Virus record (IMG/VR): IMGVR_UViG_3300017720_000099
Span: 1-20,033 of that record
Direction: 5' to 3' (one strand)
Source of the DNA: a virus
DNA: 20,033 nt
The position numbers were made by a program, and so were the translations under genes. Positions 1,388 through 17,800 of the stretch are shown piece by piece (position 1 is the stretch's first letter; each line of letters opens with the position of its first letter). The notes beneath the pieces are model-generated. The model had not been told where the DNA came from. It did no database searches and worked only from the letters and a program-made list of their open reading frames with translations.

Positions 1388-1596
1388 TGGCTTATCATTC
1401 CATAGAAAAATTAAGAAAATACAACCATGGTGCTTTAAAAAAATTGCGAATTGCAGTTAAATTAACTCATATGAAAGACCTACCTAAAGAGGGATTGACA
1501 GATAGAGAGTGTGATAGGGTATTAGAAGCCTTGAATCCAGTCACATTAGAGAAGCTTTACAAACTAGCAGTAGACCATGACATCGTTAACCTATAA
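1387..1596 (+). CDS. 69-residue helical protein directly before the large terminase, unknown
   Basis: ATG 1387 overlaps the preceding stop by one base and the frame ends inside the first codons of the large terminase gene (20-base overlap). The product is highly charged and predicted helical throughout: MAYHSIEKLRKYNHGALKKL, then a segment with LPKEGLTDRECDRVLEALNP and a final helix ending HDIVNL. I see no helix-turn-helix, zinc site or other known motif. Its place immediately before the large terminase would fit a packaging accessory protein, but the better small-terminase candidate lies at the left edge of the window. Coding is supported by its length, coupling and position. Confidence 0.7.
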   Translation: MAYHSIEKLRKYNHGALKKLRIAVKLTHMKDLPKEGLTDRECDRVLEALNPVTLEKLYKLAVDHDIVNL

Positions 1597-3082
1597 GCCA
1601 GACGGCGACGTAATCAAACAATTCATGAAAGACACGTCTTTTTTTCGTGGGCTTCGTGGACCAGTAGGTAGTGGTAAATCAGTCTCTTGTTGTATTGAAA
1701 TATTGAGACGTGCCTTAGAACAAAAGCCATCGGAAGATGGAATCAAAAGATCAAGATGGGCTGTGATAAGAAATACCAACCCACAATTGAAAACAACTAC
1801 AATAAAAACGTGGATTGATTGGTTTCCTGAAGAAACGTGGGGCAAGTTTACATGGTCAGTACCCTATACCCATAAAATAAAAAAAGGCGATTTAGAATTG
1901 GAAGTTATCTTTTTAGCCCTTGATAGACCAGAAGATGTCAAGAAACTACTATCATTGGAGCTAACAGGCGTATGGATTAATGAAGCAAGAGAAATACCTA
2001 AGTCAATTGTTGACGCATGTACCATGAGGGTTGGAAGATATCCTAGTATGCGTGACGGTGGTCCCACATGGTATGGCGTTATATGTGATACCAACCCACC
2101 AGATACAGACCATTGGTGGTCAATCCTTGCAGGTGAAACTGTTATCCCAGATTATATAACTAAGCAAGAAGCTAAGATGTTAGTGAAGCCTGATAACTGG
2201 AGGTTTTTTAATCAACCCCCAGCTATGTTAGAGCAGTACGATGATAGAGGTGAATTGAACACCTATAACGACAATACTAACAAAGAAAATGGAAAGAATC
2301 TAACTAAGAATTATTATGAAAATATTATACGTGGTAAGACCAAATCATGGATTGATGTCTATGTTTTAAACAAATTAGGTCAAGTAGAAGATGGGAAACC
2401 TGTATATGAAATGTTTAATAGAGATGTGCATATAGCTAAAAGCGATATAGCTATAGTGCCACAAGCCCCAGTTTACGTAGGCATAGACTTTGGATTAACC
2501 CCAGCGTGTGTCTTTGGGCAGAAACTTAGAGGTAGATGGCTTATCATTGATGAGCTTGTAGCAGAGGATATGGGTATATTACGCTTTAGCGATCTAATGA
2601 AATCTAAAATGGCAGAGTATTTACCTAGAGATTTTACAATATTTGGCGACCCAGCAGGTGACCATAGGGCGCAGACAGACGAATCTACACCATTTCAGAT
2701 ACTAAAAGGCAGAGGAATTATGGCAAGACCAACTCATTCCAACGATGTTTCATTGCGTTTGGAAAGTGTCAATGCTACATTACAGAGAATGATTGATGGC
2801 GAAAGTGGTTTATTAATAGACCCTAAGTGCGTTAACATTATAAAAGGTTTTGATGGAGGTTATCATTACAGACGTATGCAAGTATCAGGAGAAAGATACG
2901 ATGAAAAGCCTAACAAGAATAGGTTTTCGCATATACATGACGCATTACAGTACATGTTGCTAGGTGCTGGAGAGGGAAGAAGCTTGACAGTAGGTCAATC
3001 TAATTCAAGACCAGTAGTAGCTAAAAGAAACTTTAATGTGTTTGATTTGAAATCAAAATCAATTTATGAAAGGAGAAAATAG
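1577..3082 (+). CDS. terL: Terminase large subunit (packaging ATPase and nuclease)
   Basis: This 501-residue protein is the motor that pumps DNA into the prohead and cuts it to genome length. The ATPase domain is N-terminal: Walker A GPVGSGKS at 28-35, a Walker B-like strand GVWINEARE at 131-139 with the catalytic glutamate at 136, and a coupling motif CDTNPPD at 170-176. The C-terminal RNase H-like nuclease shows three expected acidic positions: D304 in VGIDFG, D358 in FGDPAG and D455 in HIHDAL. The usual Walker B aspartate is asparagine here (N135), which I have seen in other phage terminases. Length is somewhat below T7 gp19 (586). The start overlaps the previous gene by 20 bases and lacks a strong Shine-Dalgarno, so translation is probably coupled. 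Unlike T7, where the gene sits at the right end of the genome, it lies directly before the portal region. Confidence 0.97.
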   Translation: MTSLTYKPDGDVIKQFMKDTSFFRGLRGPVGSGKSVSCCIEILRRALEQKPSEDGIKRSRWAVIRNTNPQLKTTTIKTWIDWFPEETWGKFTWSVPYTHKIKKGDLELEVIFLALDRPEDVKKLLSLELTGVWINEAREIPKSIVDACTMRVGRYPSMRDGGPTWYGVICDTNPPDTDHWWSILAGETVIPDYITKQEAKMLVKPDNWRFFNQPPAMLEQYDDRGELNTYNDNTNKENGKNLTKNYYENIIRGKTKSWIDVYVLNKLGQVEDGKPVYEMFNRDVHIAKSDIAIVPQAPVYVGIDFGLTPACVFGQKLRGRWLIIDELVAEDMGILRFSDLMKSKMAEYLPRDFTIFGDPAGDHRAQTDESTPFQILKGRGIMARPTHSNDVSLRLESVNATLQRMIDGESGLLIDPKCVNIIKGFDGGYHYRRMQVSGERYDEKPNKNRFSHIHDALQYMLLGAGEGRSLTVGQSNSRPVVAKRNFNVFDLKSKSIYERRK

Positions 3083-3084
3083 AA

Positions 3085-3348
3085 ATGTGTGGAAATCCAT
3101 TTAGTAGCCCAAGTATTCCTGCACCACCCCCACCTCCACCAGAGGATGAGAGTGCAAGAGACGCTCGTAAAAGAATGCGAGAAGACGAGCAGAAAGAAAC
3201 GGCTGAGAAAAAACGTGATGATTTAGAAAATAGAATCGCCGCTTTGTATGGGACAACAGGCAGAAGATCGCTCTTAACTGGTAGAACAGGGGGACAGGGT
3301 TTTAAAGTTGGCTCTGAACTTATGAGTAATCGTACACTAGGAGCATAA
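3085..3348 (+). CDS. Small connector-region protein with proline-rich N-terminus, unknown
   Basis: The 87-residue product begins MCGNPFSSPSIPAPPPPPPE, followed by a highly charged helix (about residues 22-52, E/R/K-rich) and ends in GRRSLLTGRTGGQGF plus a short tail. Small proteins with a polyproline start, a charged helix and a RRSLLTG..GGxGF end are common between terminase and portal genes in podoviruses of this kind, but their role is not established as far as I know; a minor virion or packaging factor is a reasonable guess. AAGGAG (about 3069-3075) supplies the ribosome-binding site. The N-terminal Cys2 resembles that of the gp14-like protein at 10924. Confidence 0.8.
   Translation: MCGNPFSSPSIPAPPPPPPEDESARDARKRMREDEQKETAEKKRDDLENRIAALYGTTGRRSLLTGRTGGQGFKVGSELMSNRTLGA
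3339..3343 (+). promoter_or_regulatory. Shine-Dalgarno fixing a TTG start for the portal gene
   Basis: AGGAG lies six bases before TTG 3350. No ATG occurs in the portal frame until far into the protein (around residue 180), so TTG is the only sensible start. The ribosome-binding site lies within the last codons of the upstream gene, which coordinates the two. Confidence 0.75.
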
Positions 3349-3349
3349 T

Positions 3350-4924
3350 TTGGCTGTAATAGACACCTACGCTCCTAGTATTAGCCAACATGATAGTCCT
3401 GTTAATGCTTTATTAAAGCGTTATGAATCTGCAAAAGCAGTAAAAGACCAATGGAAAGGCACGTTTGAAGAGTGCTATGAGTTTGCTTTACCACAAAAAG
3501 AATCATTTTATGATGAAACACAGGGTAGAAGACGCACAGATAGAATCTTTGATGAGACAGCAGTCGTTGGAATCCAAGAGTTTGCTTCAAGATTACAGTC
3601 AGGAATCGTACCAAACTTCAGTAGATGGGCAGAATTCAGGGCTGGTAATGAAATTCCAAAGGAAGATAAAAAAGAAGTAGACCTGTTACTAGACGAAGTA
3701 ACTGAATATGTATTTGAGTTATTGCAAAACTCTAACTTCTCACAAGAAGTACATGAATCATTTTTAGACATAGCATTAGGAACAGCAGTGCTTTTAGTAG
3801 AAGAGGGAGACGCAGTTAACCCTATAGTTTTCAAAAGTATTCCATTACCACAGGTTTATTTGTCATCTGGATATGATGATAAGGTCGATCATGTGTTTAG
3901 AGAAAGACAAATTAGAGCAAAAGATATGTTAATTGCTTACCCAGATGGACAACTTAGCGACGATATGAAGCGTGATATGATAGAAAATCCTGAAAAAATG
4001 TGTGAAATCATAGAGGTTGTATACAAAAATCATGCCAATACAAAGGATGATGAGTACCATTATTGTGCTATTTCACCAGAACATGAGCATAAAATATACG
4101 AAGAAGTCTATAAAGGGCTAGGTGCTAACCCATTTATTGTATACAGATGGTCTAAAAGTAGCGGAGAAACCTATGGTCGTGGACCATTAATGAACGCTTT
4201 ACCTGCTATTAAGACTGCAAACCTACTTATTGAAATGGTTTTAGAAAATGCACAGATGTCTATATCTGGCATGTATCAAGTTGAAGATGACGGCGTAGTT
4301 AACGTAGATAATATCTCATTGATTCCGGGAACAATAATTCCTAAAGCTGCTGGGTCGTCTGGACTACAGCCAATACCACAAGCTGGAAACTTTAATGTTA
4401 GTGACTTGGTTTTAAAAGACCAAAGAAACAATATTAAGAAAGCCTTATATAATGATATGTTGGGAATGCCTAATCAATCTACACCAATGTCTGCAACAGA
4501 AGTAGCAGAAAGACAAGCTGATTTATCACGTCAAATTGGTGCAGCATTCGGAAGATTACAAGCAGAATTAGTAACACCAGTATTACAAAGAGTAGTTTAT
4601 ATCCTTAAAAAACAAGGAAGAATTAAAATACCTAAAGTAAACGGTAGAGAAATAAAAGTAACTTCATCAAGTCCACTAGCACAGGCACAATACCAACAAG
4701 ATGTAGCTACAGTAGACAGATTTTTAGCAATGATACAAGGCAGAGTAGGTCCAGAACTTACAAATTTGATAGTAGATCAAATGAAAGTAGCTAAGTATGT
4801 AGCTAAAAAACTAGGGGTGCCAGAAGAATTGGTGCGTTCTGAAGAGGAAATGCAAGCCGCAGCTCAACAAATGCAACAAATGATGGCTCAACAACAGCAA
4901 TCAACAGAACCACAAGGAGAATAA
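3350..4924 (+). CDS. Portal (head-tail connector) protein, T7 gp8-like
   Basis: This 524-residue protein is close in length to T7 gp8 (536). It forms the dodecameric ring at the unique vertex that docks the terminase, nucleates assembly and later carries the tail. Recognisable features are the N-terminal helix LLKRYESAKAVKDQWKGTFE (21-40), the block ETAVVGIQEFASRLQSGIVP (69-88) ending in NFSRW, a GTAVLLVEEGD strand near 145-155 and the GRGPLMNALPAIKTANLL segment near 277. These are typical of the Head-tail_con family. The C-terminus is glutamine- and methionine-rich (last 25 or so residues), as in several marine podovirus portals. The start is TTG with a good Shine-Dalgarno and only one base separates it from the previous stop. 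Confidence 0.93.
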   Translation: MAVIDTYAPSISQHDSPVNALLKRYESAKAVKDQWKGTFEECYEFALPQKESFYDETQGRRRTDRIFDETAVVGIQEFASRLQSGIVPNFSRWAEFRAGNEIPKEDKKEVDLLLDEVTEYVFELLQNSNFSQEVHESFLDIALGTAVLLVEEGDAVNPIVFKSIPLPQVYLSSGYDDKVDHVFRERQIRAKDMLIAYPDGQLSDDMKRDMIENPEKMCEIIEVVYKNHANTKDDEYHYCAISPEHEHKIYEEVYKGLGANPFIVYRWSKSSGETYGRGPLMNALPAIKTANLLIEMVLENAQMSISGMYQVEDDGVVNVDNISLIPGTIIPKAAGSSGLQPIPQAGNFNVSDLVLKDQRNNIKKALYNDMLGMPNQSTPMSATEVAERQADLSRQIGAAFGRLQAELVTPVLQRVVYILKKQGRIKIPKVNGREIKVTSSSPLAQAQYQQDVATVDRFLAMIQGRVGPELTNLIVDQMKVAKYVAKKLGVPEELVRSEEEMQAAAQQMQQMMAQQQQSTEPQGE

Positions 4925-4926
4925 TT

Positions 4927-5022
4927 ATGCCAATGGGTAAAGGAACTTATGGAAGTAAGGTTGGTCGTCCACCAATGAAAAAGAAAAAGGACAGCATGAA
5001 GAAGAAAAAAAAGAAAAAGTGA
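4927..5022 (+). CDS. 31-residue lysine-rich peptide (GKGTYGSKVGRPP), unknown
   Basis: An AAGGAG ribosome-binding site (4914-4919 region) precedes ATG 4927; the frame ends at TGA 5020-5022. The peptide has a defined head, MPMGKGTYGSKVGRPPMKKK, and then an almost pure lysine tail. I recall near-identical tiny proteins (MPMGxGTYGSxxGRPxKKK) next to structural genes in marine phages, which supports real coding despite its size. The GRPP turn flanked by lysines resembles an AT-hook-like DNA contact. A role in DNA condensation or head assembly is possible but is inference only. It fills the whole gap between the portal and the Bbp19-like gene. Confidence 0.72.
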   Translation: MPMGKGTYGSKVGRPPMKKKKDSMKKKKKKK

Positions 5023-5029
5023 GGTCTTT

Positions 5030-5317
5030 ATGACAGAGAACAAGCCCAATAAACTTATTGGATTAGACGGTATGACCAGACAATCTAAAGATGAGGAGAA
5101 CTTAAATACTTTGTGTTTTGGTGTATTCAACACCGTATCAGGAAAAGAAATCTTAAAGTACTTGAAATCCTTAACCTTAGACGCAGTAGCTGGTCCAGAA
5201 ATATCCAATGAACAATTGAGACATTTAGAGGGACAAAGATACATTGTTGGTTTATTACAAAGAAGAATCAACAAAGGTACTAGTCAAAAATTAGTTAAGG
5301 AGAATAACAATGGCTGA
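5030..5317 (+). CDS. Bbp19-like small head-region protein
   Basis: The 95-residue protein contains CFGVFNTVSGKEILKYLKSL followed by an EISNEQLRHLEGQRYIVGLL helix. The arrangement FxxVFxTxxGKxxLxxL, a variable loop and then xxLxxxEGxRxxVxxLxxxI is that of the Bbp19-like family, small proteins encoded near the scaffold gene in podoviruses such as Bordetella phage BPP-1. Their role is not firmly known; an association with head assembly is inferred from position. A GAGG at 5021-5024, overlapping the previous stop, provides the ribosome-binding site, and the gene overlaps the scaffold start by 8 bases. Confidence 0.75.
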   Translation: MTENKPNKLIGLDGMTRQSKDEENLNTLCFGVFNTVSGKEILKYLKSLTLDAVAGPEISNEQLRHLEGQRYIVGLLQRRINKGTSQKLVKENNNG

Positions 5318-6116
5318 AGAGCAACAAGCAGTAGAATCTACTGAACAAGCAACACAAGAACCCGTACAACAAGAAACAGAAAATGTTTCACGTGAAACAT
5401 CTGAACCTGAAGTTTTAGCAGATAGACCAGACTTTGTACCAGAAAAATTTTGGAATGAAGAAACTGGTGAAGTTAAACTTCAAGATATATGCCACTCATA
5501 TAGCAATGCAGAACAGCTTATTTCTGGAAAAGAAGAAGCATGGGAAGAAAGAATTAAGTCTAAAATGGATTTAGAAAGCAAAGAACTTATTCCTGAATCG
5601 CCAGATAAGTATGAGCTTCCTGATTTGTTAGAGGGAATTAATGAAGAAATGGTAGAATCTAACCCGATTATGGAAGATTTTAGAAAATATGCCCATGAAA
5701 ACAAGGTATCACCAGATCAATTTAAAAACTTAGTTAACATGTATTTGGATAAACTTGTCTATCCACAACAAAAAGCTTTTGAAGAAGAATCTAAAAAGCT
5801 TGGAGACAATGGACCTGAGAGACTTGACGCTGCAAATTCTTTTGTAACTGCAAACTTTACACCAGAAGAAGCACAGTTAATTCAATATACTTTAGGAACA
5901 TCTGCATTAGGCGTTGATATTTTAGAAAAAGTACAGAATCTAACTAAGTCAACTAGGGTAATGGCAGACGCAGTAGCAAAACCACAGTCTCCATTAACTC
6001 TTGCTAAAGTAAGAGAGAAGATGAAAGACCCTAAATACTTTGACCCCAGACATAAGGACCCAGCTTACATCAAGGAAGTAGATGATGACTTTGCTAGGTT
6101 GTATGGAGACAGCTAG
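5310..6116 (+). CDS. Scaffold (capsid assembly) protein, T7 gp9-like
   Basis: The 268-residue acidic protein (T7 gp9 has 307) starts after AAGGAG with ideal spacing. Residues 1-36 are low-complexity E/Q/T/S and surely disordered. Then comes RPDFVPEKFWNEETGEVKLQ (39-58) and a CHSYSNAEQLISG segment, the RPxxVPEKFWxxETGEV..xxSY pattern shared by podovirus scaffolds. The rest is mainly helical and charged, ending in a basic DPRHKDPAYIKEVDDDFARL helix that could bind the coat protein. It should form the temporary core on which capsid subunits assemble, then leave before packaging. Codons 25-30 (NVSRET) encode a perfect parS-like palindrome, described separately. The 3' end overlaps the next gene by up to 35 bases. 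Confidence 0.88.
   Translation: MAEEQQAVESTEQATQEPVQQETENVSRETSEPEVLADRPDFVPEKFWNEETGEVKLQDICHSYSNAEQLISGKEEAWEERIKSKMDLESKELIPESPDKYELPDLLEGINEEMVESNPIMEDFRKYAHENKVSPDQFKNLVNMYLDKLVYPQQKAFEEESKKLGDNGPERLDAANSFVTANFTPEEAQLIQYTLGTSALGVDILEKVQNLTKSTRVMADAVAKPQSPLTLAKVREKMKDPKYFDPRHKDPAYIKEVDDDFARLYGDS
5383..5400. promoter_or_regulatory. Perfect parS consensus palindrome (candidate ParB-binding site) inside the scaffold gene
   Basis: Bases 5383-5400 read ATGTTTCACGTGAAACAT, an uninterrupted 18-bp palindrome. Its inner 16 bases (5384-5399), TGTTTCACGTGAAACA, equal the widely conserved bacterial parS sequence, the site where the CTP-dependent clamp protein ParB loads and spreads during chromosome and plasmid segregation. 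The site lies in codons 25-30 of the scaffold gene, a disordered stretch where the DNA sequence is free to be selected. From base composition I estimate about one chance in 100,000 for this exact 16-mer in a window this size. No second full copy is present here. Binding and function are inferred. Confidence 0.75.
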
Positions 6117-6672
6117 ACTTTATGTCGAACGAGGATTGCCAGATCATTCCTATGAACTGGCACCTCACCTAAAACAATCAGATAAAGAGGAGCTAGCAAT
6201 TATGGGCAATGACCCATTGACTTCTTTGCTTTCTCCTTTTCGTTATAGATACAGAAAAAATATAAATACGTACACAGTAATGACTGCAGACAAGGAAGTT
6301 ATTGCTATGTTTGGTGTTATTCCTTTGATGAATGAAACCAAAAAAGGTGCTGTATGGTTTCTTTCTAAGCAATTTACTAGAAAACAATCACTATATTTTG
6401 CTAAAAGAAATAACAAATGGACAGATTACTTTCTATCTGACTATGATTATGTGTTTAATTTTGTACCAATTCATAATATTTCTACAATAAAGTGGTTAAA
6501 ATGGCAGGGTTTTTTGTTTAAAAGAAATCATTTGCTTGTTAAAGATATTGAAATGTTGTATTTTTATAGGCAGATACAGGGTGTATCTGGAAATATACAG
6601 CCCATTATTGATGATATCGGTCCAGTATGGACAACCGAAAAAGCAGATAAGGGACAACTGTTAGAACATTAA
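6082..6672 (+). CDS. T7 gp13-like internal virion/core assembly protein (GNAT-like fold family)
   Basis: This 196-residue protein shows KQSDKEELAIMGNDP (31-45), EVIAMFGVIP followed by AVWFLSK (72-96), and YDYVFNFVPIHNISTIKWLK with WQGFLFKR (121-148). The order D-x-x-E, xxAxFGV, VWFL, YxxxxNFVxxxNxxxIxWLKxxGF is that of the T7 gp13 / DUF2833 family, which resembles degenerate GNAT acetyltransferases. T7 gp13 (138 residues) is needed for infective particles and is linked to the internal core. Start: ATG 6082 has AAGGA five bases upstream; ATG 6103 is a possible shorter start with a weaker TAGG. The gene overlaps the scaffold gene. In T7 it lies between genes 12 and 14; here it precedes the capsid gene. 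Confidence 0.72.
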   Translation: MMTLLGCMETARLYVERGLPDHSYELAPHLKQSDKEELAIMGNDPLTSLLSPFRYRYRKNINTYTVMTADKEVIAMFGVIPLMNETKKGAVWFLSKQFTRKQSLYFAKRNNKWTDYFLSDYDYVFNFVPIHNISTIKWLKWQGFLFKRNHLLVKDIEMLYFYRQIQGVSGNIQPIIDDIGPVWTTEKADKGQLLEH

Positions 6673-6698
6673 ATGATAATTTTTAAGGAGAGAGTTAA

Positions 6699-7523
6699 AT
6701 GGCAACTCAAATTACAAATTCGTTTATTAAGCAGTTTGAATCCGAAGTCCACATGGCTTATCAAAGAATGGGTTCAAAGCTTAAGAATACGGTAAGACAA
6801 ACATCAAATGTTCAAGGTAACCAAGCAAGATTCCAAAAAGTAGGAACAGGCACAGCGTCTACTAAATCTAGACACGGTGAAGTTCCAACAATGGAGTTAA
6901 CACATTCTACAGTAGATGTCACATTAAGTGATTTCTATGCTGCGGATATGGTTGACAAACTTGATGAGCTAAAAACAAATATTGACGAAAGACAAATATT
7001 AGCTCAATCAGCTGCTTCGGCTCTTGGACGTAAAGTAGACCAGTTAATAATAGATGTATTAGACGCTGGCTCTAACTCAAACAACGTAGTTCATGGTTCA
7101 GCGGCATTGACGCTAGCTAAAGCTTTAACAGTATATGAAGCATTTGGCGAAGCAGATATCCCTGATGACGGACAAAGATACTTTGTTGTATCACCTGCTG
7201 GTTGGGCTGACCTATTACAAATAGATCAATTCAGCAGAGCAGAATACGTAGGAGAGGGAGACTTACCATATGCTGGTGGAATGACTGCCAAGCGTTGGTT
7301 AGGTTTCTTATGGTTTACTCATTCTGGGTTATCCATTTCAAGTACAACTAGGGACTGTCACGCATATCACAACACAGCTGTTGGGATGGCTAGTGGACAG
7401 GACATTACTACTGAAATGAACTATTTACCAGAAAAAGTAAGTAATTTAATAACATCATACTTTAGTGCAGGAGCTGTCATGATTGACAACGACGGTGCTA
7501 TTGAATGTCAAATAACAGAATAA
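6699..7523 (+). CDS. Major capsid protein
   Basis: The 274-residue product follows a strong AAGGAG site, as expected for the most abundant virion protein, and sits right after scaffold-region genes. It begins MATQITNSFIKQFESEVHMA, then has VQGNQARFQKVGTGTASTKS with RHGEVPTMELTHSTVDVTL, then DFYAADMVDKLDELKTNIDE and a helix (QSAASALGRKVDQLIIDVLD). I recognise this as the capsid type of BPP-1-like and marine podoviruses: an N-terminal helical arm, RFQKVGxGTAxTKxRHG and DFYAxDxVDKLDExKxNIDERQ. It is expected to adopt the HK97 fold, though this cannot be shown from sequence alone. It is shorter than T7 gp10A (345) and I see no frameshift site that would make a longer 10B-like form. Confidence 0.9.
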   Translation: MATQITNSFIKQFESEVHMAYQRMGSKLKNTVRQTSNVQGNQARFQKVGTGTASTKSRHGEVPTMELTHSTVDVTLSDFYAADMVDKLDELKTNIDERQILAQSAASALGRKVDQLIIDVLDAGSNSNNVVHGSAALTLAKALTVYEAFGEADIPDDGQRYFVVSPAGWADLLQIDQFSRAEYVGEGDLPYAGGMTAKRWLGFLWFTHSGLSISSTTRDCHAYHNTAVGMASGQDITTEMNYLPEKVSNLITSYFSAGAVMIDNDGAIECQITE

Positions 7524-8450: not shown

Positions 8451-10924
8451 TGGCAACAACAAGAATTCATCAAGCAAATTTTAGTGGAGGAGAAGTAGAC
8501 CCTAATCTTATTTCACGAAACGATTTAAACGCTTATAGCAAATCATTAGATAAAGCTAGAAACGTAATATGCAGAAACCAAGGGGCAATTGAAAGGAGGG
8601 GTGGGACATTTTGGAGAGCCGATTTAGGAGCAGAATCAAGGCTTGAACCTTTCATATTTAGTGGAGAACAGGAATATATATTTGCGTTTCAAAATACAGC
8701 ATTAAAAATTTATTCAACAAATGGAACATTATTACAAACTATTACAAGTTGTCCGTGGACTACGGCACAATTAAAAAATTTAAATTTATCCCAACAAGCC
8801 GATACTATGATTGTAGTAAATGAAAACTTTATTCCGTCAGTCATAAAAAGAACAGGAGCAACAACTTTTACTAGAACAGATTTTGCATTTGATACTAGTT
8901 TAAATGGAAAAATTACATATCAGCCTTACTTTAAGTTTGCTGATAATACAGTTACATTAGACGCAGATTCATCAAGTGCTGGCACAGGAGTTACAGTCAC
9001 ATCTAGTGCTTCATATTTTACATCTGATTATGTAGGAACAACGCTAAAAATATATGGAACAGAAGCTACGGTTACTGGATATTCTAGTGCAACTTCTATA
9101 ACAGTTACATTAAAAGACGATTTATTTGTTGAACTAGATGATGACCCATTTGCTACACAACAGGGTTCTTCAACAATAAAAGTTACTCACGCAAATCATG
9201 GTTTATCTACAGGAGCTTCTATAGTTTTATCTGGTTCAGAAGATATATTTGATGATGATGGGGCTGGATTAGCACAAGGAAACATAAATGGAACAAGAAC
9301 TATTACTGTGGTAGATGATAACCATTATACTTATACTGCTGGTTCAGGTGATACAGCCACAGAATCTGTAGATGGCGGGGGTGTTAGAGTTATTATAAAA
9401 ACACATGCACCTACTAGAGATTGGCAAGAACAAGTTTTGTCTACTGCAAATGGTTTTCCTAAAACCGTAGCATTTCACGAACAAAGATTATTTTTTGCTG
9501 GAGTTCCGTCATTACCAGATGGAATACAAGGAAGCAACGTAGGAGATTTTTTTAAGTTTGATGTAGGAGAAGCAGCTGATTCTGATTCAATACAAATACA
9601 AATAGCGTCTGATGAGATAAATGAAATAAGACATATTATATCTGGTAAAGTTTTAGAAATATTAACAAACACAGCAGAGTTTTTTCTTAAACCACAAATA
9701 GGAAAACCCCTTACACCTACTGATTTGCAAATAGTTAGACAAAGTTCTTTGGGATGTCAGCTTCCTGCAAGAGCAAAAATATTTGATGGTTCTACAATAT
9801 TTGTGCAAACAAACGGAAAAACAGTAAGAGAGTACACTTTTAATGCTTCTACAGAAGAATTTGTTTCAGCTCCTATTTCGTTATTATCTAGTCATTTGGT
9901 TTCTACGCCAATAGACGCAGACAGAATAAAATCATTAGCAGATCGAGACGAACAATTATACTTTTTGGTAAACACAGATGGAACATTAGGTGTTTACTCG
10001 TCACAAAAAATACAAGAATTACAAGGTTGGGTGCAATGGTCTACAACTGGAATTATACAGTCAGTAGCTTGTTCAACAGATTTTGTTTATATTGCAGTAA
10101 AAAGAACTATAAATTCAGCAGATGTTTATTATTTAGAGCAGTTTGCTTCAACATCTTTTGATGTGCCAACAGACATGACTGTTTCAAAAACTTTATCAGG
10201 TTCTTATCAACCTCATGGTTCACCTTTAACAAACGGTAGTTTTTCTTCTGCTACTACGTTTATTGCTGATGGATTTACAAATGCACCAAATATAGGTGAA
10301 TCATTTCAATTTGCTGGAACAGGTACTGTTTATACAATAAATTCTGTAACAGCAACAGCAAATAGCGGAGAGTATGTAATAGTTTTAGATCAATCAGTTT
10401 CGCAGTCAGATGGAGTAGCTTTACAATTTACAACATCAAGAACGTTTTCTGCGTTAAATAGCAATCCAGATATGAGAGGACTAGAAGTACACGGAACATC
10501 TGGTAGCACAGAATCAGGTAATATTAATTATTATGGAAAAGGAACAGTTACGTCAGGAGGTGTAGTAGTTTTAGATACTCCAGCTTCTTCTGTAGACATT
10601 GGAACGGATTTTACTATGCAAATAAAAACATTGCCTGTTAATGCTAAAGTTACTGCTACTGGCACACAAAATCCTTTAACTGGTAACCCTACAAAAATAG
10701 CAAAATGTATACTAGAACTATCGAGTACGTATAACTTAACCGTTAATTCTAATGACATTTTAATAAATGAAACAACTATTGATACATCTTCAACCATTTC
10801 TAGTTATACTGGAAAGAAGAATGTATACTTTTTAGGATATGACAATGAGCCTGCTATTGATATTACTCAGTCAGTACCATTGCCATTAAGAATATTGGGA
10901 ATAACTTCGGAGGTATATTTTTAA
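8450..10924 (+). CDS. Tail tubular protein B (T7 gp12-like nozzle)
   Basis: This 824-residue protein (T7 gp12: 794) opens MATTRIHQANFSGGEVDPNL, then ISRNDLNAYSKSLDKARNVI and NQGAIERRGGTFW, the conserved N-terminus of podovirus tail nozzle proteins (FSGGExxPxLxxRxDxxxY...N.....GxxxRRpGtxf). Further on are FHEQRLFFAG (about 347-356), SSLGCQLPARAKIFDGSTIF and a propeller-like body. The nozzle closes the tail tip and opens on adsorption. Residues near 240-320 hold an inserted module beginning HANHGLSTGASIVLSG (residue 247 on) with a VVDDNHYTYTA segment, seen in many marine phage structural proteins and probably a beta-rich surface domain. It starts one base into the previous stop. Confidence 0.9.
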   Translation: MATTRIHQANFSGGEVDPNLISRNDLNAYSKSLDKARNVICRNQGAIERRGGTFWRADLGAESRLEPFIFSGEQEYIFAFQNTALKIYSTNGTLLQTITSCPWTTAQLKNLNLSQQADTMIVVNENFIPSVIKRTGATTFTRTDFAFDTSLNGKITYQPYFKFADNTVTLDADSSSAGTGVTVTSSASYFTSDYVGTTLKIYGTEATVTGYSSATSITVTLKDDLFVELDDDPFATQQGSSTIKVTHANHGLSTGASIVLSGSEDIFDDDGAGLAQGNINGTRTITVVDDNHYTYTAGSGDTATESVDGGGVRVIIKTHAPTRDWQEQVLSTANGFPKTVAFHEQRLFFAGVPSLPDGIQGSNVGDFFKFDVGEAADSDSIQIQIASDEINEIRHIISGKVLEILTNTAEFFLKPQIGKPLTPTDLQIVRQSSLGCQLPARAKIFDGSTIFVQTNGKTVREYTFNASTEEFVSAPISLLSSHLVSTPIDADRIKSLADRDEQLYFLVNTDGTLGVYSSQKIQELQGWVQWSTTGIIQSVACSTDFVYIAVKRTINSADVYYLEQFASTSFDVPTDMTVSKTLSGSYQPHGSPLTNGSFSSATTFIADGFTNAPNIGESFQFAGTGTVYTINSVTATANSGEYVIVLDQSVSQSDGVALQFTTSRTFSALNSNPDMRGLEVHGTSGSTESGNINYYGKGTVTSGGVVVLDTPASSVDIGTDFTMQIKTLPVNAKVTATGTQNPLTGNPTKIAKCILELSSTYNLTVNSNDILINETTIDTSSTISSYTGKKNVYFLGYDNEPAIDITQSVPLPLRILGITSEVYF

Positions 10925-11565: not shown

Positions 11566-13866
11566 ATGGCATTAATAGAAGAAAAACAACGTGCGTTGTA
11601 TGAAAGCAGAATAGGAGTTAGCAGAGGTTCTGCTAAACCTGCTCAGATACAAGATGAAATTGCTACTCAAATAGCAAGTTTAACTAAGACTGTATCTAAA
11701 AATGCTTTTGATAAAGCTGTTGAATCTGGAAAAATAGAAGCAATAGATAGAGCAAACAATTACGAGTTTCAATATGAGACTAAAAATATTGGTGGACAAG
11801 AAGTAAAGGTACCAATAAAACATGTTCAAAGAAATGATCTAGGAAAAACAGGAAATATAAAGTATTGGGAGTTAATGGATAAAAAAAGAATGAATGAGCT
11901 TGAAAATGTATCTTCATCAATTGTCCTTACCAATAGAAACAAATCAGAATCAATGGAAGAATCTGTTGCAGATTTTGACAAAAGCACTAGAGCAGACCTA
12001 TCATTATTTTTTGATAGTTTACCACCAGAAGATAGAGGAAGAGCAAAAATTGTTGCTGAAAATCAAATAACAAATGCAAAATTTTATGTTGATAAAACAC
12101 ATCAAAGAGCAGAAGTTACAAGAAATACTGCTGAACTAGGAAAAGAAATAACAGGCATATTGTTTAGTGCTGATGACGTTTTGTTAAATGAAGATAATCT
12201 TTCTTATGATATTTTAAAGCAAGATGTAGAAGACGCTATACGATTTAGAGAGGGAACTATTCCAAACAATAAAATTAAAACAGCAAGAGAAAAAGCGTTA
12301 AGTACATTAGCTACAAATAAAAATGTAAAAGAATTATTAGGAATTAATTTAGGAGGAATGTTTGACAGAGATAACATTAATAGAAACAACCTAAATATAC
12401 TAAATAAAATAAAACAAGCTTTTGAAAATAATTTTTCTGATGGATTAAAAATTGGAAATAAAGAAATTACCAGAGAACAATTGGTAGCTTCTTTAGACGG
12501 AAACAAAGTAGCTCAATATACTAGGTTAAAAAATTTTTACACAGGACAACATAACGCACTCAATGTTTTAAATACAAGATATCTACATCTCAATACAATG
12601 AGAAGAGATTACAAAACAGGTTCAGCTTCTGCTGTACCGTCAAAAAATAGAAATTTAGTTTTAGATGACCCTGAATTTGCGTCACAATTATTTGAGGAAT
12701 ATTTAGAATCTGAGCGTAGAGTAGGAACCATGGCTGAATATGAAAGGTCTGGTGAAATATTAGACTTTCATCGTTGGACATATAAAACTAAAGGAATAAG
12801 AGCGTTGCCCTCATCAAAAGTTGCAGAAATAAATGGATATTTAAATGGATATAATGTCGATGGAGTAATAAAACATTTACCTTTGATATCTGAAATGGCA
12901 AACGATCTTGACGCATTTCATACAGATATGGGGTTTGATGACAATGCTAGATACATGATGAATTATATATCTCAAAATGCTGAAATTAACAATGCAAGTG
13001 AAAACAATGTTGCGGCAGTTATAACTCAAGCATTTGAAAAAAGAAAAAGAGATGTGGGAGATACTGAGTTAAGAAAAATATTTAGTGGCAGTATAAACAA
13101 AATCCTACAAGATAATCCGAATACTGTTAGTTTAGATAAATCATATAAAACTGCTAATGATTTGTTTAAAGATTTAAATGAATTAGTTGATTCACAAGCT
13201 TATGATGTCATAGGTGCTATGGCATATACAGATATTAAAAATATAGTTTTATCAGATATATCTAAAAGTTTAATGGCACCTAACAGACCAACATTAAAAA
13301 CTTATATAGCAAATGCTATAAACACATTACAAGAAAAAGAATCTTATGGAAAAACATATGCTGGGTTTTCTTTGACTGGATATGAAGAAGTATCTAATCA
13401 ATTAAACATGGACCAATTGCCACCTACAATAATGAAATACGCACCAGAAAAAGTTTATGGTCCAGCTTTTGCAGATGGTGGATTATTGTTAGCAAGAACT
13501 ATAAGAGAAGATATTTTAAAAGTAATTGAAGATAGAACTCTTATTGATAGTAGTTTACAAGACTTTGCTTTAAATCTAAAAACAGGAAAAGATGGAAGAA
13601 TACAAAGAAGTGGCTTACCAGTAGACCCAGTTTTAGAAAGTTTATCGGAACCAGCACGAGGGCATTGGGCTAAAAGTAATTACAAACTTTATCCAAACTT
13701 AGACAATGATGGAACTGTAAGCTATACATTATTTCACGTAGGAAAAAACAAATACGACCCTATGATTGTTAGAGATTCTTTTGGTGACCCTATTGTATTC
13801 GGACCAGAATATTTTAGTGGTGTAGCAAATGCTTTATATGAACAATCAGAACAAGAAGATGAGTAA
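11566..13866 (+). CDS. Internal virion protein in the T7 gp15 position
   Basis: The 766-residue product (T7 gp15: 747) begins one base after the previous stop. It is soluble, highly charged and almost entirely predicted helical, with no membrane segment or enzymatic motif that I can see. Length, helical character and place between gp14- and gp16-like genes make it the gp15-type ejection protein, which spans the periplasm as part of the DNA-translocation tube in T7. Sequence similarity to T7 gp15 is not evident by eye, so the call is mainly by synteny. There is no clear ribosome-binding site beyond the end of the upstream gene, so translation is likely coupled. Confidence 0.78.
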   Translation: MALIEEKQRALYESRIGVSRGSAKPAQIQDEIATQIASLTKTVSKNAFDKAVESGKIEAIDRANNYEFQYETKNIGGQEVKVPIKHVQRNDLGKTGNIKYWELMDKKRMNELENVSSSIVLTNRNKSESMEESVADFDKSTRADLSLFFDSLPPEDRGRAKIVAENQITNAKFYVDKTHQRAEVTRNTAELGKEITGILFSADDVLLNEDNLSYDILKQDVEDAIRFREGTIPNNKIKTAREKALSTLATNKNVKELLGINLGGMFDRDNINRNNLNILNKIKQAFENNFSDGLKIGNKEITREQLVASLDGNKVAQYTRLKNFYTGQHNALNVLNTRYLHLNTMRRDYKTGSASAVPSKNRNLVLDDPEFASQLFEEYLESERRVGTMAEYERSGEILDFHRWTYKTKGIRALPSSKVAEINGYLNGYNVDGVIKHLPLISEMANDLDAFHTDMGFDDNARYMMNYISQNAEINNASENNVAAVITQAFEKRKRDVGDTELRKIFSGSINKILQDNPNTVSLDKSYKTANDLFKDLNELVDSQAYDVIGAMAYTDIKNIVLSDISKSLMAPNRPTLKTYIANAINTLQEKESYGKTYAGFSLTGYEEVSNQLNMDQLPPTIMKYAPEKVYGPAFADGGLLLARTIREDILKVIEDRTLIDSSLQDFALNLKTGKDGRIQRSGLPVDPVLESLSEPARGHWAKSNYKLYPNLDNDGTVSYTLFHVGKNKYDPMIVRDSFGDPIVFGPEYFSGVANALYEQSEQEDE

Positions 13867-16800
13867 AAAATATATAAGCCCTATAGAAATAACAAGGACT
13901 AGAGAAGAACAATTTAATGAGTTTGACGAGCAAAGAAAAATTGTTCAAGAAGAAATAAAAGAACCAATACAGTTAACTGGTAATGTAAAAAAACCAGTAG
14001 GGTCTTATCTTAAAAAATATCAACCAGAAGACAGGACTTTTTGGCAAGATACTGTTGATGAATTTTGGATTAACTGGGTAGGACAGTCTATAGAAAACAA
14101 TTACATTTATGATAGTAGCTACAGTAGAGAAATAGATTTAAATTTTAATCCATACCAAAATAATTATTTAGAGGGCTATGAAGATTATGAAGATCAATTT
14201 CTTAATGCTAGAAACCAAGAAGAAGCTGATAACATTAAAGCAAGAATAGATAGAAACCTTTATAGAAAAGAAAGGTTGTCAAGGTCAGATAGGGTTATGG
14301 GTCCAGCTTTAGTTGGTAATTTATTAAACCCAGAAAATTTTGTACCACTAGGTTTATTCGGCGCTGGTGTAAAATTTGGTAGTAGATTTTATAAAGGTGG
14401 AGCAATATCATCTTTATCTGTAGGTGCTACAGAACCTATAAGAAGACACTTTGACCCAACAGCTACTGACGATGAAACCATAATGTATGTAGGAAGTTCT
14501 TTTCTTTTTGGTGGATTATTTAATGGATTTTTAGGAAGAAGAGGATTAGAAAAATCTATAAAAAAAGAAATTGTAGATGACAAAGGTGGTGAAAACGGAA
14601 TAATAAATAACATTGCAAAAGGCACTAAAGAAACAAATGGTGAAAAAATTTTTGACGGTGAACTTATTAATATACAAAAAGAATATCCAGATATAAAAAT
14701 AATAAGAGTACAAGAGGGAGAAACAAAAACATTTCAAGATATGAATGGAAAACATATTCCAGAAAGCGACGCAATTAATATTTCTAAAAAAAATACTAAT
14801 TGGATAGAAAAACCTGTAACAAAAAAAATAAACATAGACAGAACCACAGATGTATATTCTGTTCAAGGACTACCAAGAAAAGCACCAATTAGAATTGTGC
14901 AAGATGGAGATGAAACCAAAGCAATAGTTAATACAGAGTATATACAAAGAATGTTTGATTCTAAAAAACATATAGCTGGTAACTTAGACAGTCAAACACC
15001 AGCAACAATGCCAAAAGAAATAGCAGATAAATTTAAAAACTCAGACCAACTTACAGAGTTTTATATTAAAAAAGAAATAAACAGAGAAACGGCTTTTAGG
15101 GATAGAAACACTGGCGAATCTGTAGCTGAGTATGAACAAGCTTTAAACTACGATACATACAACAAAGCATTAAAAAACAAAACTGGAGACTACAGAACTG
15201 ACTATGGAGATGTACCTGTATTATCTTTTATGTTGAAGCAAATTGATAAATTTTATGACCAAGGAAAAGTGTCAAATGCACTAAGAGGAATTGATGATGA
15301 ATCAGCAAACACACTAGCTAAAGCAATGTTAGAAATAAATGGAGACAGTTCTATTGTTACGAGGGCTCAAAAAGAGGGCATAGTTTTAAATTCATCTGTT
15401 CACACAAGGACAATGAATAGGTGGGGAAAAACTTTAGATGAGTTTCAAAAAGAATTTGATGACGCTTTTGTTTCTTTTGCAAAAGGAGATGATAACAGAT
15501 TGCTTGGAACTGTAGGTAATATAGATTTAGAATCTGCAAGACTTAAACTTGGCTACAATTTAAAAGGAATAGTAGACCCAAGCCAAGAACCCGTTCATAT
15601 TTATTCAGAATTTAGTCGCAAAGTGTTTCAAGCTATATCAGATCAAGATATATACAAATCATTAACTGACAAAAATATTATTAAGGCAGTCGATATATCA
15701 AGAAAGTTTTTTGATAAATTTGAAAAAGAAGCTACAAGATTAGGAATGTTTGTAAGTCAAAGAAATCTAGGAAACAAAATTGATTTTTATGATGGCATTA
15801 TAAAACAACTAGATAAAAATATTAAAAGTAAAAATTTTACTCCAGAAGCTAAAGCAAGATTTGAAGAGTTAAAAACTAGAACAAATGCACAGTTAGGAAA
15901 AGCAAAATCACAAAAACAAGATATGGATGATGGTTTAATAAATCCATTAACCGATGAATTTAAACAAACATACGTTGCAAGGTATTATAGTTTTGACAAA
16001 ATTAGTAAAAATTTAGAGGGTTTTAAAACCAAGATAAGAACTCATATAACAAATAATGCTGGTTTATATGCTGGTAGATTGCAAAAAAGAAACGGTAATG
16101 TAGATGAACTAGTAGATGATATTACTGAAAACATATTACAACAATCAGCTAGAAATGACGCTGATGGATTAATGGCTTTTGGAAGAACAGGTGGTGCTTA
16201 TAAATCAGGTGCAAGACCATTGATGGAAAGATCGCTAAGAATTGAAAGCAAAGAAATAGAAGAATTTTTAGAAACTGACTTAACTCAAATAACAAGAATG
16301 TATGCAAACAGAATGGGCATGGCTATTGAAATGCAAAGAAGTTTTGGAGACAGGCATTTAGATGATTTTTTAATTAAGACAGAATTAGAAATATTATCAA
16401 AAGGTAATATAAAAACTAAAAAACAAATTACGGCAATGAATAAAGGTTTGGGTGCTATAAATGGTGCTAAAGAAAAAATGTATGGAACATATAACAATAA
16501 GGATATTACAGCTATAGATAAAGTATTAGGACAGTTTGCTCGTAATTTAACATCGTTTAATACTATGGGTAAGGTTCTTTACACAGCATATGCAGACGCT
16601 GGAAGACCAATTATGGTTAATGGAATGTCTAGAGCGTTTCCAGAGTTTTTTGGCACAATGATAAATAACAAACAAGCATATATTAAAATGGCAAAAGACC
16701 ATGACTTTCTTTACCATGCACATGAGTTAGCAAATAACATGGGGGCTATGGAAAGGTACACTACAGGAATTGGACCAGTAGGTTCTAACCTTTTACAAAG

Positions 16801-17800
16801 GTCGCAAGGTGCTTGGTATTGGGCTAATGGTCTTACGCCGTGGACTTTGTTAATGAAAAGATGGACTGGGATTATATCTCAAAAAAGGTTTATAGAAGAT
16901 ATTGTAAAAGTATCAAATGGTACTGCTACAAAAGACGAAATATTTAGATTAAATTCATATAACATTAGTATAGATGACGCTAAATTAATAGCTAAAATGC
17001 CGTGGCAAAAAGAAAAAACTGGGTTAATACTTGCAAATACAAAAGCATGGGGTAGTAAAAAATACGGAAATCATGCGATACAAAAATTTAGAGCAGCCGT
17101 TCAAATGGATATAGAAAGAACAATTATTACTCCTAGCCCTGCAGATAAAATAAATATGATGTTTGGTGTTGTTGATATACCGTCAGAATCATTTAGAAAA
17201 ATTGTAGCTGGTAATGAGCTTTTGCAAAAATTTGGATTTCAAGAACACGCTTATGGTGTTAAATTTCAAAATGCTTTTATGTCTTTGCCATTTCAATTTA
17301 TGAGTTGGATGGTAGCTTCGAATAGAAAATTATTAATGGCTGGTGTAACAGGTAGAGACTTTTATCTAATGCAAGGCGCAATGGCTATGATTGCTTTCGG
17401 TGCTTATGGAGATTATTTAAAAGCTCCTGAGATGTGGTTTAGAAAATCACATCAAGAAAAGTTTTTATCTGGAGTAGAGCGATCTGGTGTATTAGGAATA
17501 TTTAGTGACGTTCCGGGCATGATTGAAAATGCAACAGATAATCAATATGGATTAAGACCAATGTTAGGAATGCCAGACCCATTTGACCCAGACAACAATA
17601 GAGCAAGACCTCATGACAAATATAGAGTATTGATGGGACCTGCTGGTAGCAAATTTTACGATTTATATGATGCTATGACATCAGACGAATTGGGACCAAG
17701 AGACACAAAAAAGGCTGTAAGAGACTTATTACCTACACAAAACTTGCTTTGGTGGGATGATAAGTTTAAATCCATTTACAATTGGTCTACAGACTATTAA
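13859..17800 (+). CDS. Large internal virion protein in the T7 gp16 position
   Basis: I start at ATG 13859 (MSKKYISPIE), which overlaps the previous stop by 8 bases. An upstream ATG at 13829 lacks any ribosome-binding site and would extend the overlap. The 1313-residue product nearly equals T7 gp16 (1318). Residues 1-145 are hydrophilic. Residues 146-226 hold two hydrophobic glycine-rich stretches (GPALVGNLLNPENFVPLGLF and MYVGSSFLFGGLFNGFLG). A long helical body follows, and another hydrophobic segment (FYLMQGAMAMIAFGAYGDYL) lies near 1167. gp16 in T7 carries an N-terminal lytic transglycosylase and completes the channel in the inner membrane. I cannot see a transglycosylase active site here, so the wall-digesting activity may be absent or elsewhere. 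Function rests on size, position and membrane segments. Confidence 0.8.
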   Translation: MSKKYISPIEITRTREEQFNEFDEQRKIVQEEIKEPIQLTGNVKKPVGSYLKKYQPEDRTFWQDTVDEFWINWVGQSIENNYIYDSSYSREIDLNFNPYQNNYLEGYEDYEDQFLNARNQEEADNIKARIDRNLYRKERLSRSDRVMGPALVGNLLNPENFVPLGLFGAGVKFGSRFYKGGAISSLSVGATEPIRRHFDPTATDDETIMYVGSSFLFGGLFNGFLGRRGLEKSIKKEIVDDKGGENGIINNIAKGTKETNGEKIFDGELINIQKEYPDIKIIRVQEGETKTFQDMNGKHIPESDAINISKKNTNWIEKPVTKKINIDRTTDVYSVQGLPRKAPIRIVQDGDETKAIVNTEYIQRMFDSKKHIAGNLDSQTPATMPKEIADKFKNSDQLTEFYIKKEINRETAFRDRNTGESVAEYEQALNYDTYNKALKNKTGDYRTDYGDVPVLSFMLKQIDKFYDQGKVSNALRGIDDESANTLAKAMLEINGDSSIVTRAQKEGIVLNSSVHTRTMNRWGKTLDEFQKEFDDAFVSFAKGDDNRLLGTVGNIDLESARLKLGYNLKGIVDPSQEPVHIYSEFSRKVFQAISDQDIYKSLTDKNIIKAVDISRKFFDKFEKEATRLGMFVSQRNLGNKIDFYDGIIKQLDKNIKSKNFTPEAKARFEELKTRTNAQLGKAKSQKQDMDDGLINPLTDEFKQTYVARYYSFDKISKNLEGFKTKIRTHITNNAGLYAGRLQKRNGNVDELVDDITENILQQSARNDADGLMAFGRTGGAYKSGARPLMERSLRIESKEIEEFLETDLTQITRMYANRMGMAIEMQRSFGDRHLDDFLIKTELEILSKGNIKTKKQITAMNKGLGAINGAKEKMYGTYNNKDITAIDKVLGQFARNLTSFNTMGKVLYTAYADAGRPIMVNGMSRAFPEFFGTMINNKQAYIKMAKDHDFLYHAHELANNMGAMERYTTGIGPVGSNLLQRSQGAWYWANGLTPWTLLMKRWTGIISQKRFIEDIVKVSNGTATKDEIFRLNSYNISIDDAKLIAKMPWQKEKTGLILANTKAWGSKKYGNHAIQKFRAAVQMDIERTIITPSPADKINMMFGVVDIPSESFRKIVAGNELLQKFGFQEHAYGVKFQNAFMSLPFQFMSWMVASNRKLLMAGVTGRDFYLMQGAMAMIAFGAYGDYLKAPEMWFRKSHQEKFLSGVERSGVLGIFSDVPGMIENATDNQYGLRPMLGMPDPFDPDNNRARPHDKYRVLMGPAGSKFYDLYDAMTSDELGPRDTKKAVRDLLPTQNLLWWDDKFKSIYNWSTDY

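Follow-up and report, generated by a model that had tools for sequence, protein, structure and literature searches.

The window analysed here, a stretch of 20,033 bases of viral DNA, contains, all on the plus strand, genes for the terminase large subunit (1577 to 3082; phrog_2), the portal or head-tail connector protein (3350 to 4924; phrog_332), a scaffold protein (5310 to 6116; phrog_3742) and the major head protein (6699 to 7523; phrog_3437). Based on its score with the PF05396 profile (33.3 bits, the cut-off being 27.1) and on its position between the portal and major head protein genes, the 268-aa scaffold product is a capsid assembly protein of the phage T7 type, sharing with that family both the protein body and the order portal-scaffold-head protein. 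Its first 38 residues (5310 to 5423, plus strand) form a leader rich in Glu, Gln and Thr, of which residues 1-33 were predicted to be disordered (pLDDT below 50), the remainder of the protein being mostly helical in the predicted model. Since this model has a mean pLDDT of 67.7 and a pTM of 0.34, only the contrast between order and disorder is used here; a fold search with it returned no match at E ≤0.001. Among isolates, Pelagibacter phage EXVC031P Hodr is nearest (71.8% identity over 86% of positions 1577-7523), and from it we infer the host of the window phage. The Hodr-titled record, L134 (OQ414635), bears EXVC032PBaldr locus tags, probably an annotation slip.

Within the leader lies an exact copy of the 16-bp parS palindrome, TGTTTCACGTGAAACA (5384 to 5399), which agrees with the parS consensus given either as TGTTTCACGTGAAACA or as TGTTCCACGTGAAACA, the latter being the form used experimentally in Bacillus subtilis (PMC7614844, section 5). 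Its conserved part is a 14-bp core, GTTTCACGTGAAAC (5385 to 5398), the outermost bases being variable both in phages and in SAR11 chromosomes. On the plus strand, positions 5382 to 5399 are read in frame with the scaffold gene as N25 V26 S27 R28 E29 T30 (AAT GTT TCA CGT GAA ACA), as the first-pass annotation had stated. That annotation had also described the hexapeptide as the only arginine-bearing patch of a disordered Glu/Gln/Thr-rich leader, and both parts of this description hold: Arg28 is the only arginine before Arg39, and 54 of the 56 distinct site-bearing leaders have no arginine outside the site. One further parS-like match at three or fewer mismatches was found in the whole window, at 9340 (shuffled sequences averaged 0.10); this stretch, 9340-9355, has three mismatches and is found unchanged in L123 and L124 and in variant form in L121 and L127.

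To find relatives we used the body of the scaffold protein, leaving off the leader, so that their choice was independent of the site. The 161 loci compared comprised 77 of the 80 loci nearest the window (L124, L328 and L329, whose leaders are cut off, were dropped), the 80 loci nearest L053, and the window itself, L131, L111 and Hodr. From a separate set of 13 loci, L122, L123 and L131 were retained under their own identifiers; L121, L125 and L128 are identical contigs to L279, L280 and L308; and L126, L127, L129, L130, L132 and L133, all six site-bearing, were left out of the counts. L053 (the same as L364) and L111, which both seeded alignments, came initially from a parS scan and are biased for that reason; the others were reached through protein patterns outside the leader. 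The site was present in the leader at 0-2 mismatches in 68 of the 161 loci and stood at 5-8 mismatches in the other 93, with none at 3 or 4, and its frequency was 61/77 in the set nearest the window versus 3/80 in the set nearest L053. As the first-pass annotation had supposed, other phage scaffolds thus bear the element, but the parS leader is missing from most of the PF05396-type relatives examined. On a quick tree of 140 distinct bodies, presence of the site changed eight times, at least five of these changes being forced by well-supported branches, and the core was still intact where scaffold bodies were down to 28-50% identity. When leader codons were shuffled, 12 of 28,000 draws yielded a site at two or fewer mismatches, whereas 56 of the 140 distinct relatives have one; the leader site therefore exceeds chance expectation.

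We found that the 68 sites encode VSRET (29), VSHET (17), VPRET (15), VSRGT (4), VSNET (2) and VSQET (1), with the first codon being GTT in all 68, the second TCA or CCA, the third CGT, CAT, AAT or CAA and the fourth GAA or GGA. The residue before the site is N, D or E, and never H. Seven changes in the V, S, R and E codons were reconstructed on the tree of the 56 distinct bearers, all seven altering the amino acid and none being synonymous. Over four-codon stretches of the body, the median was 68 nucleotide changes and the minimum 27, versus 7 in the core codons; third-position changes had a median of 36 and a minimum of 16 in the body, versus one in the site. Even the 59 body columns with at most three amino-acid changes averaged 8.0 third-base changes, with a minimum of one, as against none at V, S and E. 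Beyond the 14-bp core the sequence drifts freely, the third base of the Thr codon having changed eight times, always synonymously, and the preceding codon 13 times. In addition, the DNA of the VPRET form, GTTCCACGTGAAAC, is the reverse complement of that of the VSRGT form, GTTTCACGTGGAAC, so that a symmetric DNA-binding dimer would meet one and the same duplex in both; this duplex is the parS form published for B. subtilis. Judged from these substitutions, the constraint expected of a parS acts on the DNA, as the relatives change the protein and keep the DNA site.

The proposal that the peptide may exist only because the DNA element does therefore gains support: the pattern that would speak for selection on the protein, a constant hexapeptide with varied codons, was sought among the 68 sites, and the opposite was seen. 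Its corollary, that (N/H)VSRET could serve as a protein-level handle for finding parS-bearing phages, did not survive, as VSRET occurs at just 29 of the 68 sites, H never precedes it, and other parS-bearing phages place the site outside a leader or in a frame reading FHVK. The right search handle is the DNA pattern, the VSRET peptide being a poor one.

Twenty of the 68 sites, those of a Hodr-like clade that includes Hodr itself, have an altered centre (CACATG, CAAATG or CACAAG), in which the central CG is lost and both arms are kept. Within this clade, 36% of the body columns with an invariant amino acid also lack third-base changes, and at such low divergence constraint and descent look alike. 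The Hodr-like sites may be decaying or may be matched to a changed host ParB. A search of SAR11 for host parS with an altered centre (pattern GTTTCANNTGAAAC) matched 139 of 197 genomes; among the matches listed, most of the other centres occurred in genomes that also have an ordinary core.

On the host side, five SAR11 genomes obtained with a 16S probe each had one site at no more than one mismatch, and a reversed control gave no match. In a wider draw, 152 of 197 SAR11 genomes matched at two or fewer mismatches, but the reversed control pattern matched some of them too, so the host argument rests on the position of the site. In all eight SAR11 genomes tested, a single match to the TIGR00180 ParB model was present, with a GTTTCACGTGAAAC core 1.2-1.6 kb away, which points to a cognate ParB for the site in the host assigned through Hodr. 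Among the phages, the same outer-base variants are seen as in the host sites. In nine of nine loci (L270-L278) the core falls close to the start of a 211-222-codon open frame and is read there as VSRET; in the one locus checked this frame is rsmG (GidB), between gidA and parA; in a further genome (G054, locus L361) it is read in a different frame. The SAR11 chromosomal parS in rsmG (for example, L271:1454-2110) gives NVSRET at about codons 15-21, agreeing with the earlier suggestion that chromosomal parS sites inside genes are read in this way. The same hexapeptide in the same codons can thus be written by both host and phage. The rsmG site shares with the phage site its core, its frame and its place near the N-terminus of a coding sequence; it differs in adjoining parA and parB, and its flanking protein has no relationship with the phage leader.

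Records were also searched along their whole length. Of 39 family records, 29 matched at two or fewer mismatches, each of them having the leader site, and ten had no match; 28 of the 29 had a single match and one, G222 (67.8 kb), had two. The second parS copy of G222 (L527) lies near the N-terminus of a 530-aa ORF. Among 44 further records (a search that covered 39 of the 80 loci of the set nearest L053 whole), four had the leader site, two (L371 and L385) had an exact parS in another gene and none in the leader, and 38 had none. The parS-bearing gene of L371 is a 22%-identical homologue of the window ORF at 13829-17800. parS in another gene, in a record without the leader site, is seen at L525 (G243) and L526 (G249). 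In a podovirus contig, L004, the site is at codon 24 of a gene between the portal and head protein genes, and a query with L004 returned itself alone; a query with L007 found the site in 4 of 80 relatives; and in L444-L447, which have a different portal, NVSRET lies in a Pro/Gln-rich linker and was absent from the relatives shown. Among 17 Pelagibacter phage records, the core is intact only in HTVC027P (16412-16427), a cultured lytic phage of HTCC1062, and the site in Hodr is degenerate. The HTVC027P core (14 bp) lies inside an unannotated 123-aa ORF (L547:1017-1388; HTVC027P 16216-16587) and is read in the other open frame, as FHVKH. No site was found in HTVC022P, described as integration-capable (PMC12753301), and the majority of the cultured pelagiphages examined are without it. 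The absence of the site from 10 of 39 and 38 of 44 records, and the intact core in only 1 of 17 Pelagibacter phage records, indicate that it is not essential for infection of SAR11.

In IMG/VR, the exact parS was found in at least 120 rows, part of which may be prophages, phage-plasmids or host DNA, compared with 11 and 5 rows for two control palindromes of the same dinucleotides; it is thus more than ten times commoner in viral contigs than either control. A general rule that parS sits in head genes was not supported: 54 of the 146 sites in the 120 listed rows fall in ORFs of at least 120 aa (41 in the VSRET and 13 in the FHVK frame), and the 43 of these proteins that were scanned match scattered families, with at most two members each. 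Some viral contigs carry clustered sites: a 437-aa ORF of a contig with 30% GC (L042:5910-7220) contains about 20-residue tandem repeats, and in two of these an exact parS is read as NVSRET (6704 and 6764), and L016, L043 and L052 have three to five exact parS within about 1 kb, as against the single sites of the window family.

The data are probably best explained if the 16-mer mimics the parS of the host chromosome, being selected as DNA and tolerated in a disordered leader, by which host ParB would be drawn to phage DNA; we put the probability of this reading at roughly 0.74. It is suggested by the host-type core, the constraint at the DNA level, the usual single copy per record and the lack of any phage ParB found. 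Specifically, none of the 17 phage records searched, several of them perhaps fragments, matched ParB_N (PF02195), so that, as far as this family tells, parA/parB are not carried on the site's own replicon, and the site would be a parS mimic rather than part of a phage ParABS system. The integrase family (PF00589) likewise had no match in 17 of 17 phage records, some perhaps fragments, and these 17 records thus appear to lack the integrase or ParB of a temperate phage, or of a plasmid prophage with its own partition system.

Most likely, then, the site recruits host ParB onto phage DNA. We infer that SAR11 ParB, a CTP-dependent clamp, would load at the phage site, slide along the adjacent phage DNA and couple it to ParA and SMC. 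Since the host apparently has just one parS, close to parB, and copies of the phage site multiply with the phage, ParB would most likely be drawn off the host origin to phage DNA, with the consequence that phage DNA would be held in the host segregation machinery, and host segregation disturbed, during a long latent period. In B. subtilis, additional parS copies draw ParB away from the origin, and origin separation suffers; a lone site carried by a high-copy plasmid has this effect too (PMC7614844). The parS mimics of SGI1 are described as stabilizing that element and destabilizing its helper (PMC10954446); the same two outcomes may be expected of the phage site. In the scaffold leader, amino-acid changes would come at little cost, which would account for a dispensable peptide, for the consistently hydrophilic frame there and for the use of other spots in other phages.

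Another possibility, which we hold to be considerably weaker, is that the phage hitchhikes for maintenance, ParA and ParB positioning and passing on a non-replicating or slowly replicating phage genome in a carrier state, with ParB not diverted. It shares the ParB-binding step with the reading that we prefer, and confidence in the two overlaps. The use by SGI1 of helper-plasmid parS mimics for its own stability (PMC10954446) would fit it, as would the usual single site per phage record and the latent period of about 18 h given for the lytic pelagiphage HTVC027P in PMC12753301; against it, the module search, consisting of the integrase and ParB families, gave no match in any of the 17 records. 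Capture of ParB by replicating phage DNA is tentatively favoured over partition-like positioning.

It is improbable that some other sequence-specific protein, such as a phage or host transcription or replication factor, binds the site and that its likeness to parS is accidental. The element does lie near the start of a late gene, a position from which a regulator could act, but its core agrees at 14 of 14 bases with the SAR11 chromosomal site that lies 1.2-1.6 kb from parB, the tolerated variants are known parS variants in both orientations, and the same core was gained in other genes by separate phage groups. That selection acts on the VSRET peptide itself, for instance to keep a capsid or protease contact, is very unlikely; V, E and T are kept in most bearers and 20 of 68 sites retain the arms and not the centre, but the codon pattern refutes it in the main (no synonymous against seven amino-acid changes in V-S-R-E), the peptide is absent from 93 of 161 relatives and its region is predicted to be disordered, and L053 has it while L365, an 81% relative, lacks the block. 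Still less probable is an RNA hairpin in the scaffold mRNA: the 16-mer can fold into a 6-bp stem (-3.9 kcal/mol), but no fold is predicted for the VPRET form (0.0), which defeats this reading; moreover, 13 of 56 lack pair 5-12, constraint extends to the central loop bases, and host chromosomes and other genes carry the same element. Chance, or descent without function, is negligible, for, while relatives do share the site by descent with about eight gains or losses on the tree, shuffled leaders rarely produced it (12 of 28,000), the core is intact where bodies are at 28-50% identity, and the two control palindromes are rare.

Bacillus phage phi29, a virulent podovirus, is said to use the host ParB (Spo0J) and parS-like sites for entry into spores. 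The likeness lies in a podovirus with host ParB and parS; the difference is that phi29 would use them for spore entry, whereas SAR11 is not known to make spores. The parS mimics of IncC plasmids in SGI1 are similarly a case of a mobile element bearing the parS of another replicon, for which ParB binding and competition were demonstrated by the authors (PMC10954446). The target of SGI1 is a plasmid ParABS and its sites lie in repeats of an integrative element, whereas the phage target would be a chromosomal ParABS and its site lies in scaffold coding DNA. No paper on a pelagiphage parS, or on a phage parS directed at the ParB of its host, was found by title or abstract, a search that left most subscription journals outside its scope.

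More broadly, the chances seem to us even that phages of SAR11-like ocean bacteria repeatedly wrote the host centromere into coding DNA, mostly into a disposable head-protein leader, so that each replicated genome would capture ParB and DNA would dictate capsid sequence, with gain, loss and relocation of the site marking shifts in takeover strategy. If the mimic reading is true, the machinery that segregates host chromosomes would be exploited by lytic phages of a bacterial group that is among the most abundant, and the leader would clearly illustrate how a DNA site within a gene can shape a segment of a structural protein, in which amino acids change and codons do not drift.
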